A DNA stretch of 53,832 bases from a bacterium HR15 (GTDB lineage Bacteria; Armatimonadota; Fimbriimonadia; Fimbriimonadales; GBS-DC), in contig BEHR01000026.1 in assembly GCA_002898555.1 (NCBI GenBank), positions 1 to 53,832 of the forward strand. Reading direction: 5' to 3'. Below, one piece after another: positions 2,808 through 26,441 of this stretch (positions are counted from its first letter, which is position 1; the number at the start of each line of letters is the position of its first letter). Below the pieces are notes generated by a model. That model was not told the DNA's origin and did not search any database. It worked only from the letters and a program-made list of their open reading frames with translations. The translations under genes and the position numbers were made by a program.

Positions 2808-3320
2808 TCACTGTCCGATTTCCTGCCTGCCGTCCCGAAAAAACGCCTGTCCCAGTTGCTTAATCTGCCTCATATACTGCCGCACCGTGCCCACTGATAA
2901 CCCTAACATCGCTCCTATCTCGGCATAATCGTACCCTTGGTTATACAACACCGCCACCCGTTGCAAGGAGGCAGGCAACCGAGTAATGAACTGCTCCATA
3001 GCAATTCGCTCAAGTAACGCTGCTTCATAGTCTTCGGTAACCAGCCGCTCACCCAACTCTGTGTCCAGCAGCTGTCGCTCATGTTGGCAGTAAGGTTGTC
3101 TGGCACGGTCAATAGCTAGCGAGCGTAGTTTGCAGTAGCACCAAGCTTGAGCTTGGCGGAGTTCATCGGGCTGCATCAGGCGTTGCCAAGGGTAATAGTG
3201 GAAGCGGCGGTAGAAAGCGTACAAGCAGTCCTGCACGAGGTCCTCAGCGTCTGCCTCACAATAGCAGAGATGCACCGCCTTCCGCATGAGCCACCTTCGC
3301 CATTCTGGTTCAGTATGCAT
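2808..3320 (-). CDS. ECF-type RNA polymerase sigma factor
   Basis: About 170 aa with a sigma region 2 (CEADAEDLVQDCLYAFYR) and a region 4 helix-turn-helix (YDYAEIGAMLGLSVGTVRQY), the two-domain layout of extracytoplasmic-function sigma factors. An ATG at 3347 is in frame, but GGAGGTGG lies 8 nt before the ATG at 3320, so 3320 is preferred. The gene closely follows the propeller protein and precedes aroA, all on the minus strand. No anti-sigma factor with a recognisable zinc-finger or membrane helix is adjacent; the secreted propeller protein and NlpC/P60 protein upstream are candidates for partners or targets. A ~100-bp copy of its region 4 coding end is found at 6241-6371. Confidence 0.88.
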   Translation of the reverse strand: MHTEPEWRRWLMRKAVHLCYCEADAEDLVQDCLYAFYRRFHYYPWQRLMQPDELRQAQAWCYCKLRSLAIDRARQPYCQHERQLLDTELGERLVTEDYEAALLERIAMEQFITRLPASLQRVAVLYNQGYDYAEIGAMLGLSVGTVRQYMRQIKQLGQAFFRDGRQEIGQ

Positions 3321-3353
3321 CGATGCCACCTCCGTGTCTGTTAGCATGCATGG

Positions 3354-4628
3354 TTACTGTTCACCCAGCCTCACTCGTTTTACCGCCACTCCCTCAGGAA
3401 GGAAATGCAGATAGTAGAGATTACCTTGCCTATCTGCAGCGTAGGGGGACAAGTAAGCGCAATGCACCGTATCCTCAAACACTACATTGCCTGAGGAGTC
3501 CAGCACCACTAGCGAGTACTTGCGCGCCCAAATCTCGTCGATATCCAAGCCCCCGGGACGAATACACACATACGATGCGTCGAGATCGTCTATGCTGTCG
3601 ATGCGAAACAGCAACGCCAACCGATCAGAACGCACCAGCAGCAGCTTGCGACGGATATCCCCACGCTCATAGAGTTCCTCCTTGATCGGAAAGCGGGCGA
3701 CTTGCTGCCCTTTCACATCGACTATCGTTACCTCCGCTGGTTCCCACGCTACCCCATATGTCTTTTCTGAACGTTTTATAAAGCCTAACGAGCCGTTAGG
3801 TAAACGGATTATCCCACCTCCCAACGCATCGCGGATCTGAGGCGCCTCGCTGGGATGTAGGCGCATTACCTTCGGTCTTTCGTAGATATCCCCGTACTTG
3901 CGAAAACCGCACTTGAGGTATATCTCGCCTTGATCCGTCACAACGATGTCATCTCCTATGCCGAAGTACCCATCCAGCGTCTTGAGCGTTTGGAATAGGT
4001 CTTTGTGCAGCTTATCCAAGAGAGCGGTGTCGATGGTCCCATCGGGCGCTTTGATATAGAATACTTTGAGATACGACCGTATGAGCTGATATTCAGCCTC
4101 TTGCTCCTTCGGCTCTCCAGTTTGCGCTTCCAGTTCTTCTTTTGCACGAGCAAGCGCCTCGTGGAAGTGCCGTTCCATAAACCGCGTAACGCTATAGCAC
4201 CGACCATCAGCACCTATATCCACTACATCACCGCCCGTACCTTCGGGGTAGGCAACAAATCGGGTGAGACGCCCCTGCTGATCAAACACCTGCAAAGCCG
4301 AGCCACCTTCTCTATCAGCAAAGAAGGCTATCTTTCCATCGGGCAAGAGGCGGAACATGCGAGGCACTATATACATATAATCACCCTCGCCTGGTCCCTC
4401 TTCGTGGATATAGATTTGATGAGGCGCTTTTCCATACGGAATAATGAAGAGCGTTTCGCTTTGAAGCGTTCGCTGCCCTATAGGATTGGTGTGCGGAAGC
4501 GTAGCTAAGCTATCGGACGACAAGTTCGTTCGGATAGCTGAGCTATTGGGAAGGGACATGCTGAACACGAGCATTATCAGCCCTAGACAACAGAAGTCCA
4601 TCGCAGCAAGCCATCGTACCATCGTCAT
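3354..4628 (-). CDS. Secreted or anchored propeller-like protein of unknown function (paralogue of 43807-44967)
   Basis: The 424-aa product begins with a signal-peptide-like segment (CCLGLIMLVFSMSL) followed by a polar region. The body contains repeated blade-like phrases: LFIIPYGKAPHQIYI, RLLPDGKIAFFADREG, LQVFDQQGRLTRFV, IVVTDQGEIYLKCG and, at the end, DRQGNLYYLHFLPEG, which suggest a beta-propeller of NHL/6-bladed type. Start ATG is preceded by AGGAGGGT. It lies 24 bp after the NlpC/P60 gene and 33 bp before the sigma start, so the three look co-transcribed. The gene at 43807 shares the N-terminal (PYG.A...IYI), DGxI and GNxYYL phrases, so the two are paralogues. No catalytic motif is visible. 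Confidence 0.75.
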   Translation of the reverse strand: MTMVRWLAAMDFCCLGLIMLVFSMSLPNSSAIRTNLSSDSLATLPHTNPIGQRTLQSETLFIIPYGKAPHQIYIHEEGPGEGDYMYIVPRMFRLLPDGKIAFFADREGGSALQVFDQQGRLTRFVAYPEGTGGDVVDIGADGRCYSVTRFMERHFHEALARAKEELEAQTGEPKEQEAEYQLIRSYLKVFYIKAPDGTIDTALLDKLHKDLFQTLKTLDGYFGIGDDIVVTDQGEIYLKCGFRKYGDIYERPKVMRLHPSEAPQIRDALGGGIIRLPNGSLGFIKRSEKTYGVAWEPAEVTIVDVKGQQVARFPIKEELYERGDIRRKLLLVRSDRLALLFRIDSIDDLDASYVCIRPGGLDIDEIWARKYSLVVLDSSGNVVFEDTVHCAYLSPYAADRQGNLYYLHFLPEGVAVKRVRLGEQ

Positions 4629-4652
4629 ACCCTCCTATGTAGTGTACCCGAT

Positions 4653-6185
4653 TCATCTGCGGAAGCGACGCGGGTAGAAGTTATCATTATCGGTTGTCGG
4701 GTCGCCCTCCAAATCACTAATTGTGTATCTCACGATTCTTACTTTTTCTTTGCCGGATAAATCTCCTACATTGGTTTCGTCCCCACGAGCACCGACTGCC
4801 TCAATACATACATATGTCGGGTAACTTCCAGGCACAGGAGGAAACACATAGAGAATCAACATTACATGGTTACCTGATCCACCTGGGTGATGGCGAATGA
4901 ATACATCGCCAGGGCGAACCGCATTCCAATCTGGAAGCCATCGCCGCTGTCGGGAATTGTAGTATTGGATAGGATCGGTTTCTGCCAAGATTGTCCCGGT
5001 GCCATAGTGTGTGTTGTTTGGAGATCGATTCGCAACAGCAATCAAACCTGAACAGTCCAACCCAAACCCTGCATTGGTGCCACGACCGCTGCTGTCTATG
5101 TAGCTACTACGAGCCCCTGAAGCCTCCGCCGCGTAATATTTGCCACCCCACTCGTAAGGTACCTCCTCATAGATGGTTGCTATATGAATGCGCCACCAAG
5201 CGGGTGTATCAAAGGGAATAAAGCAGCCAGGCATCGGGCAGTTGACTCCGAGCATTGAGTGTCCTCCCATCAGTTCCCCAAGATTATTGAACACGAAAAT
5301 AGGGTATTTCACTGGGTACGCTATAGATACATAAAAGGGAAACCAATATACAACTCCACTCATAATCGGTTCATACGCCCAGTTACGCCAGCTTCGCTGG
5401 CCATAGTACTGGTTATAACTTGCACCTCTAAGGGGTTCTGAAAATTCTCCCTGACAATTGCCGTTCCAACTACTAAGCCCCAGACAATCGTTCATTCCGG
5501 GCAGAGGGGCCCTCTGGTTGCTTCCTGGTATCCATATGGATCTGGCTACTACGCGATCAGCTTTTCTTTCTTCCCAACGAATGCAAACTATAGGGGCTAT
5601 AATACCTCCTCTTGGCAAGGTAAAAATCTGCTGCCAGCCCATTCCTCCCCTTTTGATGTCGGCAAGATAGTATCGTATGAAACTATTCCCATTTCTATCC
5701 CGATAGCTGGGTGGCATGGGGGAACTTCGTCGAGTCTTGATCGTTTCTCTATCTACCTTCGTTCGCTCAAGGCGATACCACTCTATGGTCAACTGCACCT
5801 GAGTATTCGTACTGGACCATGAACGAGCCTGAACATTTTCTAAACTCAGCAAGTCATAAACTGTCAGATCTCCACTTCCTGCTGCTACCACCCAACCATT
5901 TCCTGAAAGGAATCTGCTTCTTGCATTGGAATAGAAGTTACCATCCGAACCTTTCAGAAGAATCGCACACTCAATCGGCTCATTTTCAAAGTTGATGTTA
6001 GCACGAAACCGATTGCTTCCTCCTAATGTTGCGTAGCGAATGGGGGCCGCAAGATTTCGATATAAGAGCAAAGCACCTCGTGGATATACTGGAGCGCGCT
6101 GCTGGGCATCTGCGAGAAGCATCAGAGCACTTACGAATGCCCAACAAGTGAGGCTCCTTGCAATCAACTCCTTCCATCTCCTCAT
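4653..6185 (-). CDS. Exported protein with C-terminal NlpC/P60-type cysteine peptidase domain
   Basis: The chosen start, 6185, has AGGAGG 9 nt upstream and gives a signal peptide (MRRWKELIARSLTCWAFVSA...LLADAQQ); the longer frame from 6260 would place 25 extra residues before it. The ~510-aa protein has a long N-terminal region of unknown fold, then DCSGLIAVANR (catalytic Cys378), RPGDVFIRHH and GNHVMLIL (His440), the Cys/His pair and GD motif of NlpC/P60 peptidases. Such enzymes usually cleave cell-wall peptide stems, but an amidase or transglutaminase-like role is also possible. It heads the row NlpC/P60, propeller, sigma, aroA. Base composition is visibly more AT-rich than the flanking housekeeping genes, hinting at acquisition. 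Confidence 0.8.
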   Translation of the reverse strand: MRRWKELIARSLTCWAFVSALMLLADAQQRAPVYPRGALLLYRNLAAPIRYATLGGSNRFRANINFENEPIECAILLKGSDGNFYSNARSRFLSGNGWVVAAGSGDLTVYDLLSLENVQARSWSSTNTQVQLTIEWYRLERTKVDRETIKTRRSSPMPPSYRDRNGNSFIRYYLADIKRGGMGWQQIFTLPRGGIIAPIVCIRWEERKADRVVARSIWIPGSNQRAPLPGMNDCLGLSSWNGNCQGEFSEPLRGASYNQYYGQRSWRNWAYEPIMSGVVYWFPFYVSIAYPVKYPIFVFNNLGELMGGHSMLGVNCPMPGCFIPFDTPAWWRIHIATIYEEVPYEWGGKYYAAEASGARSSYIDSSGRGTNAGFGLDCSGLIAVANRSPNNTHYGTGTILAETDPIQYYNSRQRRWLPDWNAVRPGDVFIRHHPGGSGNHVMLILYVFPPVPGSYPTYVCIEAVGARGDETNVGDLSGKEKVRIVRYTISDLEGDPTTDNDNFYPRRFRR

Positions 6186-6240
6186 CACTTTGTACCTCCT
6201 TCCGCCGGTTCGGAAAGCCCTTGCAGAGCCTCCATTTCTA

Positions 6241-6371
6241 TTAACGATGGAAACTGCCAATTTGTGAACATCTATCCCGAAAAAAAAACGCCTGTCCCGG
6301 TTGCTTAATCTGCCTCATATACTGCCGCACCGTGCCCACTGATAACCCTAACATCGCTCCTATCTCGGCAT
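6241..6371 (-). pseudogene. Duplicated 3' fragment of the ECF sigma factor gene
   Basis: Positions about 6276-6371 match 2836-2934 with one substitution and a 3-base lengthening of an A run (9 versus 6 A). The encoded tail (AEIGAMLGLSVGTVRQYMRQ, then QAFFFRDR versus QAFFRDG) is in the same frame, but the sigma N-terminal half is missing: sequence identity breaks at 6371 and runs into the promoter of the thioredoxin-like gene. The fragment sits just upstream of the NlpC/P60 gene and the intact sigma gene lies at the other end of the row, as if the block had been inserted or amplified by recombination between sigma copies. Confidence 0.85.
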
Positions 6372-6396
6372 ACACGGCGGGATGTACACGCTCTGG

Positions 6397-6413
6397 TATA
6401 ATCCCGGTGAGGG
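6397..6413 (+). promoter_or_regulatory. -10 box and ribosome binding site of the thioredoxin-dapF pair
   Basis: TATAAT at 6397-6402 is followed by GGTGAGGG (6406-6413) and the ATG at 6420. No convincing -35 hexamer is seen. Confidence 0.5.
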
Positions 6414-6419
6414 ATAACA

Positions 6420-6851
6420 ATGAATAAGCTACCGCGCACGAACCTGAGGGATTTGCAACGACGGCTTGCCCGCCAGAAGGGCAAGGTGGTGGTGCTGAAC
6501 TTCTGGGCGACATGGTGCCAGCCCTGCGTGGAGGAGTTTCCTGCCCTTGTCAAACTCTACAACAACTACCGCAAGAAGGGCGTGATCGTGATAGCCGTCT
6601 CGGTGGACGACCCAGAGACCGCGGACGAGCAGGTGCAGCCTTTTATCAAGCGACAGCGGGCGACCTTCCCCGTTTTGGTCCTCGATGAGGACGCCGACCA
6701 GTTCATTCGCCACTTCGATAAGGAGTGGGGCGGTGAAATCCCACGCACCTATCTCTACAGCAAATCAGGCAAGCGGCTCAAAGCATGGTCGGGTTCGCGC
6801 CGCTATCAGGAGTTTGAGCAAGAGGTGAAGGAGGCGCTGAAGCAGAAGTGA
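6420..6851 (+). CDS. Thioredoxin-fold protein, TlpA/ResA-like
   Basis: 143 aa with the active-site motif WCQPC (Cys33, Cys36) after the typical strand VVVLNFWAT, and the cis-proline loop at GEIPRTYLY. The family includes thiol-disulfide reductases and peroxiredoxin-like proteins. Unlike classical TlpA/ResA no signal peptide or membrane anchor precedes the fold, so a cytoplasmic location is suggested. It overlaps dapF by 4 nt (GTGA), so the two are translationally coupled, though no functional link between a redox protein and lysine/peptidoglycan precursor synthesis is evident beyond the possible protection of the DapF cysteine pair. Confidence 0.88.
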   Translation: MNKLPRTNLRDLQRRLARQKGKVVVLNFWATWCQPCVEEFPALVKLYNNYRKKGVIVIAVSVDDPETADEQVQPFIKRQRATFPVLVLDEDADQFIRHFDKEWGGEIPRTYLYSKSGKRLKAWSGSRRYQEFEQEVKEALKQK

Positions 6852-26313: not shown

Positions 26314-26441
26314 GCGTTTTTGATTCGAACCAAACCGTGTCTTTCCTGCCAGGAGGAGGAACGGGCTGCGCCGACGGAGAATTTCTGACCGAACGGTCAG
26401 AATCATGGGTGAAAACCGCAGGAATCGAGCAGAGGCTGATG

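Follow-up and report, generated by a model that had tools for sequence, protein, structure and literature searches.

Near the start of the 53,832-nucleotide contig BEHR01000026.1 of the hot-spring bacterium HR15 (assembly GCA_002898555.1; Armatimonadota, Fimbriimonadales), which we analysed as a whole and refer to as the window, three minus-strand genes encode, in the direction of transcription, a predicted exported NlpC/P60-like cysteine peptidase, an exported propeller-like protein and a sigma factor of the extracytoplasmic function (ECF) type. A fragment of the sigma gene, hereafter the stub, lies upstream of the NlpC gene. We propose that this block probably descends, by rearrangement and erosion, from an operon found repeatedly in relatives, where the genes follow one another as sigma, NlpC and propeller, and that recombination within a tandem array followed by erosion gave it its present form. 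The stub is better read, from its sequence context, as the in-place remnant of the ancestral front sigma gene than as the mark of an insertion, and the full-length sigma gene at the back of the block is, by the same comparison, an extra, near-identical second copy.

As an initial annotation of the window had stated, a direct copy of the sigma tail is found at each edge of the block. Delimited by eye, the two copies span positions 2833-2927 and 6275-6372 and differ by one substitution and by the length of a homopolymer (A6 versus A9 on the plus strand); aligned over 90 nt (2838-2927 and 6283-6372), they are 99% identical. Given that only one substitution and the A6/A9 difference separate them, the repeat does not reflect chance. 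The annotation had described it as a 96-bp copy of the sigma 3' end. The repeat is real, but the sequence common to both copies corresponds to the end of sigma region 4, and it breaks off approximately 8 codons short of the present sigma stop codon. The protein sequence of the stub matches residues 141-178 of the sigma factor at 87%. The two copies diverge 5 nt beyond the T run, and on the 5' side of the stub (6373-6420) similarity to sigma was not visible by eye.

The 89 nt that lead from the stub to the NlpC gene encode, in the NlpC frame, FFGIDVHKLAVSIVNRNGGSAR, which matches the COOH-terminal extension of the sigma factor of a relative, FFGVDDHKTAVCVVNYSGNGAR, with a score of 70 versus a mean of 19 for shuffled sequences, none of 500 shuffles scoring as high. 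At the DNA level, the sequence behind the stub is collinear with locus L046 up to the next start codon. The back sigma gene lacks the extension that follows the stub. Because an old sigma extension follows it collinearly, the stub appears to be the original front sigma gene in its original place. The possibility that it arose only recently, as a copy of the tail of the back sigma gene, was dropped, given that the sequence behind it matches a sigma extension. Neither the T9 run of the stub nor the T6 run of the full sigma gene has a length that is in frame with the extension; T9 is one base off the length at which the old sigma frame would run on into NlpC, a configuration comparable to the fused loci described below.

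We sought the same triplet in relatives, all of which belong to one family within Fimbriimonadales (Armatimonadota), and found that the three gene families recur in linkage, the absence of which would have spoken against the initial annotation, with the sigma gene in first position. The order sigma, NlpC, propeller was present in genome G015 (locus L023: sigma 9838-9119, NlpC 9149-7584, propeller 7556-6345), on contig C2 of the HR15 genome (L025), and in G003 (L052), G009 (L055), G017 (L056) and G011 (L044 and L045). The order NlpC, propeller, sigma of the window is therefore rotated relative to that of relatives, and the stub occupies the place expected for sigma. A similar sigma gene with an internal deletion is situated directly upstream of an exported repeat protein on contig C28 of the HR15 genome (L007 331-450), so that loss of a front sigma gene is not unique to the window block.

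Tandem copies were also sought and were found as arrays of sigma genes and cassettes in G011, the metagenome-assembled genome of Fimbriimonadales bacterium KatS3mg016 (BPGO01000003). A 7.3-kb segment is repeated there at 99.9% identity and others at 95-98%. The repeats end at array positions 1728, 7322, 16351 and 21944, in each case where a G tract behind a sigma gene ends. The KatS3 sample, to which we assigned G011 by name, was sequenced with PacBio HiFi (PMC9671151). The arrays L044, L045 and L048 have near-identical sigma heads followed by different exported proteins, and since the repeats end at G tracts, the sigma heads are common to the modules whereas the downstream cassettes vary. A comparable case is that of G003 and G009, which have 2.7 kb in common at 98% identity, including the sigma gene and the start of NlpC, with divergent genes beyond. 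At three G011 loci, a single open reading frame (ORF) of 963-1133 amino acids encodes the sigma factor, a hydrophobic segment and an extracytoplasmic part in one frame. A TAG within some G011 sigma matches was considered as a read-through site and rejected, given that it lies upstream of their start codon.

Our sigma profile separated 26 loci (96-220 bits) from the other full-length ECF genes of the family (<67 bits). The subfamily was detected in 13 of 113 genomes of the order, all of them in the one family. A scan of named genomes with the sigma head identified KatS3mg016 and SKW30 as close relatives, and the corresponding scan with the propeller gave no match.

The origin of the block can be pictured on this basis. 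An ancestral tandem array of the type sigma-cassette-sigma-cassette, as seen in G011, would have lost the 5' part of its first sigma gene together with the entire second cassette, leaving stub, NlpC, propeller and sigma. We favour array recombination and erosion because the repeats of a relative, 95-99.9% identical, end at the tract 3' of sigma. Several observations weigh against it. The rotated order with a bare terminal sigma gene was not found in any relative, so the path can only be inferred. The interval between aroA and the thioredoxin gene is not conserved in relatives. Finally, the element AGCAGGAATC, which precedes sigma genes in relatives (see below), is missing before every gene of the window block, and it is common genome-wide, not specific to the module. 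The neighbours at the aroA/thioredoxin site differ in relatives, so that there is no ancestral site for comparison; linkage of thioredoxin to dapF is conserved, and the gene upstream is not. The thioredoxin-like gene adjoining the stub (window 6420-6851) starts with MNKLPRTN and lacks the signal peptide of its family orthologs (such as MRKFWLCVALATLGMSVIADPALPRTN).

The initial annotation had attributed the flanking repeats to duplication or insertion by homologous recombination. Recombination between sigma copies is evident in the G011 arrays, but an insertion, as by a single crossover between a circular sigma-NlpC-propeller molecule and a pre-existing sigma tail beside aroA, seems to us improbable. 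Its expected geometry is indeed that of the window, stub, NlpC, propeller and sigma with a shared segment at each edge, and the collinearity of stub and extension, while counting against it, is compatible with both models. The target tail would, however, already have had to be truncated, given that 6373-6420 is without visible sigma similarity, and no integrase was seen. It is likewise unlikely, if a little less so, that only the sigma gene was duplicated, from the front of the block to the back, with breakpoints in the front sigma gene and before aroA, and that the front copy was then deleted from the thioredoxin side. Two events would suffice for such a history, the homology ends just beyond a homopolymer as it does in relatives, and the missing signal peptide of thioredoxin is consistent with deletions on that side; yet no other relative has a sigma gene that moved alone, and tandem modules are found instead. 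A contig misjoin that created the repeat is conceivable for a 72-contig assembly in which the repeat is shorter than a sequencing read. We regard such an artefact as very improbable, given that a substitution and three bases of run length distinguish the copies, that no further copy is present elsewhere in the genome, and that the sequence 3' of the stub aligns collinearly with a genuine sigma extension.

The suggestion in the initial annotation that the block is a small mobile module was not borne out. Neither the block nor its DNA has a second copy elsewhere in the 3.04-Mb, 72-contig genome, and NlpC and propeller are single-copy there at the protein level. None of the ORFs of the block was recognisable as a mobility gene, no terminal repeats were found beyond the direct sigma repeat, and the sigma subfamily is confined to one family.

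In relatives, the junction between the sigma gene and the gene for the secreted protein has a further feature. A tract of G9 to G12 follows the sigma gene at 16 of the 26 loci, and a G7 run at one more, 74-191 nt past the sigma match. Runs of G9 or longer numbered 16 in 25 junction windows of 400 nt each versus 4 in the remaining approximately 368 kb of fetched sequence, and none was found behind 15 control ECF genes for which 400 nt of downstream sequence could be read. Of the 4 other runs, two (L153 314 and L046 5744) again accompany sigma-like genes or junctions paralogous to them. The tract is situated within or next to the secretion signal of an ORF whose start is usually in the sigma tail, in the +1 frame (for example, MKRSISWLLPLTPLTIATVIIAAILTLSPVGGG on contig C41 of the HR15 genome). 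The long frame downstream of the tract coincides with that of the signal sequence at 4 of the 17 tract loci, with that of sigma at 6 and with the third frame at 7, the calls having been made partly by inspection and one locus having its hydrophobic segment in the sigma frame. Tract length differs between orthologous stretches, with G10 and G11 in genomes G003 and G009, G10 and G7 on contigs C41 and G011 C1, and G11 and G12 in genomes G010 and G012, although lengths taken from short-read assemblies may be wrong. The window block has no run of G7 or longer, and a T9 run occurs only in the stub.

The variation in post-tract frame between loci and orthologs suggests phase variation or slippage, of which heritable phase variation is the more likely reading of the tracts. 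In relatives, the sigma tail overlaps the start of the secreted gene, and the length of the G9-G12 tract would place the secreted part in the frame of its own signal, in that of sigma, or in neither. Overlap of the two genes in different frames makes a third, sigma-fused state possible. We tentatively suggest a broader picture: a lineage-specific ECF subfamily would head modules in which the sigma tail overlaps the signal of a secreted NlpC or Cys-rich protein, a mutable G tract would select a separate secreted product, a sigma-fused product or neither, recombination at the sigma heads would swap cassettes, and the window block would be a burnt-out member. The reading that we have to set against it for the wider family, also short of an even chance, is that the tracts are not heritable switches but simply encode glycine linkers, or else serve as programmed slippage sites in transcription that yield both fused and separate proteins. 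In the sigma frame, a tract does read Gly-Gly-Gly(-Gly), and long G runs can provoke slippage in RNA synthesis. GGG accounts, however, for 22.5% of glycine codons in sampled genes, so that pure runs are unlikely to be ordinary linkers and their occurrence at 16 loci would be improbable. The variation of the post-tract frame between loci and orthologs also counts against this reading, although the tract data do not separate phase variation from RNA slippage.

Two further observations concern tracts in L153 and L046. At positions 314-322 of L153 (contig C4), near the contig end, a G9 tract lies in an ECF-like gene between region-2-like and region-4-like parts, which are in different frames in the assembly; this tract is a candidate switch within a sigma gene itself. 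In L046, tracts of G15 and G10 at 5744 and 8492 occur in 96% identical stretches of approximately 236 nt in the same genome region.

An element of the AGCAGGAATC type is located 47-83 nt before the start of eleven of the sigma genes of relatives. The 10-mer AGCAGGAATC has 48 sites in the HR15 genome, where its reversed control has 0, and enrichment of the 10-mer extends to all 18 genomes of the family. It is often followed, approximately 14 nt on, by GAATC or a TATAAT-like box and a start codon. We take it to be a clade-wide promoter-like element. Given that it is common genome-wide, its presence before sigma genes is no proof of autoregulation, and we did not adopt it as an autoregulatory element of this sigma factor. 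An instance at window position 26418 reads GCAGGAATC. A sigma-dependent promoter before position 6185, which the initial annotation had singled out as a place to search, was not found: no fitting element of this type is present there, and sigma-70-like matches were at the level of shuffled sequence.

The features of the block are listed in the table. As the initial annotation had described, the genes are tightly spaced on one strand; the intergenic gaps are 24 nt (NlpC to propeller) and approximately 33 nt (propeller to sigma), and each gene has its own Shine-Dalgarno sequence.

Features of the block and its flanking repeats (window positions; SD, Shine-Dalgarno sequence)
Feature	Position	Strand	Basis
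Full-length ECF sigma gene, back of block	2808..3320	-	TIGR02937, PF04542, PF08281, SD
Segment of the full sigma gene matching the remnant	2833..2927	-	DNA repeat
Exported propeller-like protein, 424 aa	3354..4628	-	family alignment with 11 relatives; PDB profile match
Exported NlpC/P60-like cysteine peptidase, 510 aa	4653..6185	-	PF00877 sub-threshold; conserved Cys/His
Putative decayed COOH-terminal extension of ancestral front sigma, FFGIDVHKLAVSIVNRNGGSAR	6186..6274	-	open in NlpC frame
Putative remnant of ancestral front sigma (end of region 4)	6275..6372	-	DNA repeat and protein match
T9 run in the remnant (A9 on plus strand)	6280..6288	-	full sigma gene has T6 at 2838-2843

By domain tests, the window sigma is a true ECF-type factor of the sigma-70 family. 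It scored 51.2 bits with TIGR02937 (cut-off 42.9), and both sigma domains exceeded the curated Pfam cut-offs, sigma2 (PF04542) with 24.4 versus 24 and sigma4 (PF08281) with 32.2 versus 25.7. The frame is open to 3347, and the start is probably the ATG at 3320, which is favoured by the Shine-Dalgarno sequence ACGGAGG. The protein ends in RDGRQEIGQ* directly after region 4, with no extension or membrane part, and aroA begins 20 nt past the stop codon. In agreement with the initial annotation, no anti-sigma domain was recognised in the window block; the neighbours of the relatives' genes were not scanned systematically.

The designation of an exported NlpC/P60 peptidase held in part. The active-site Cys (in DC[SN]) and His are invariant across nine aligned homologues, whereas the match to PF00877 fell below the Pfam gathering score (E = 0.0059, 17 bits versus 23). 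Identity to the G015 homologue is 42-48%. The signal sequence is in frame, no G tract is present in the gene, and its Shine-Dalgarno sequence is AAGGAGG. A Pfam search with the propeller protein yielded no family, and a single-sequence AlphaFold model was poor and unusable (pLDDT of 41.6). In the alignment with 11 relatives, its ends (LFxIPYG and DxxGNLYYL) are conserved, and the resulting 12-sequence profile matched NHL-type propellers in the PDB with a best E value of 3.7e-5, which makes the label propeller-like plausible. Comparison with phage-defence families gave no meaningful match. Elsewhere in the window, a gene at the contig start (1-1473) consists of 21-nt units with repeats like EWLQRLTEGQQRHEE, and a second long frame is open across the repeats.

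With regard to function, the remaining window sigma may still recruit RNA polymerase to promoters of its own and so drive transcription of its own or related modules. The NlpC protein would cut cell-wall peptides and the propeller protein would bind a ligand or partner outside the cytoplasm, as their families suggest. Taken by itself, the block represents a rearranged operon and is of modest interest. The wider pattern is more unusual: a sigma subfamily of one Armatimonadota family, with no recognisable anti-sigma factor, stands repeatedly before genes for secreted proteins, and a slippery tract is placed at the meeting point of sigma tail and secretion signal. If this is confirmed, phase variation would be linked directly to the state of a sigma factor, free or attached to a membrane or secreted protein. 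Our searches of the open-access literature returned no report of ECF genes with such tracts or of phase variation in this group.

ECF factors with COOH-terminal extensions fused to membrane or extracytoplasmic parts include ECF52 (SCO4117), ECF48, ECF53, ECF57 (with WD40-like repeats) and IutY (PMC8999054). The modules described here resemble these in having an ECF sigma factor without a separate anti-sigma factor and, at three G011 loci, in joining the sigma factor in one frame to a hydrophobic segment and an extracytoplasmic part. The presence of a propeller-type partner is reminiscent of ECF57. They differ from them in that the window sigma ends after region 4, fusion in relatives depends on G-tract length, and a zinc-finger anti-sigma domain was not seen. 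The window peptidase shares with NlpC/P60 peptidases (PF00877) the invariant Cys in DC[SN], the His before a hydrophobic strand and the export signal, but it has a large unmatched NH2-terminal part and scores under the Pfam cut-off.

Phase-variable contingency loci with simple repeats in coding sequence are familiar from Neisseria and Campylobacter, and the leader of Neisseria opa genes carries such repeats. The relatives' loci resemble them in that the signal sequence of a secreted protein contains or adjoins a G9-G12 tract, whose length varies between copies and orthologs. They are unlike them in that the tract is placed where the tail of an ECF sigma gene and the start of the secreted gene overlap in different frames; the window copy, for its part, has no G tract. 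By the tests made, the window copy is a member of neither the extension-fused ECF factors nor the contingency loci. As a module, judged by these comparisons, the system would work most like the extension-fused ECF factors that lack an anti-sigma factor, combined in relatives with repeat-based contingency loci.

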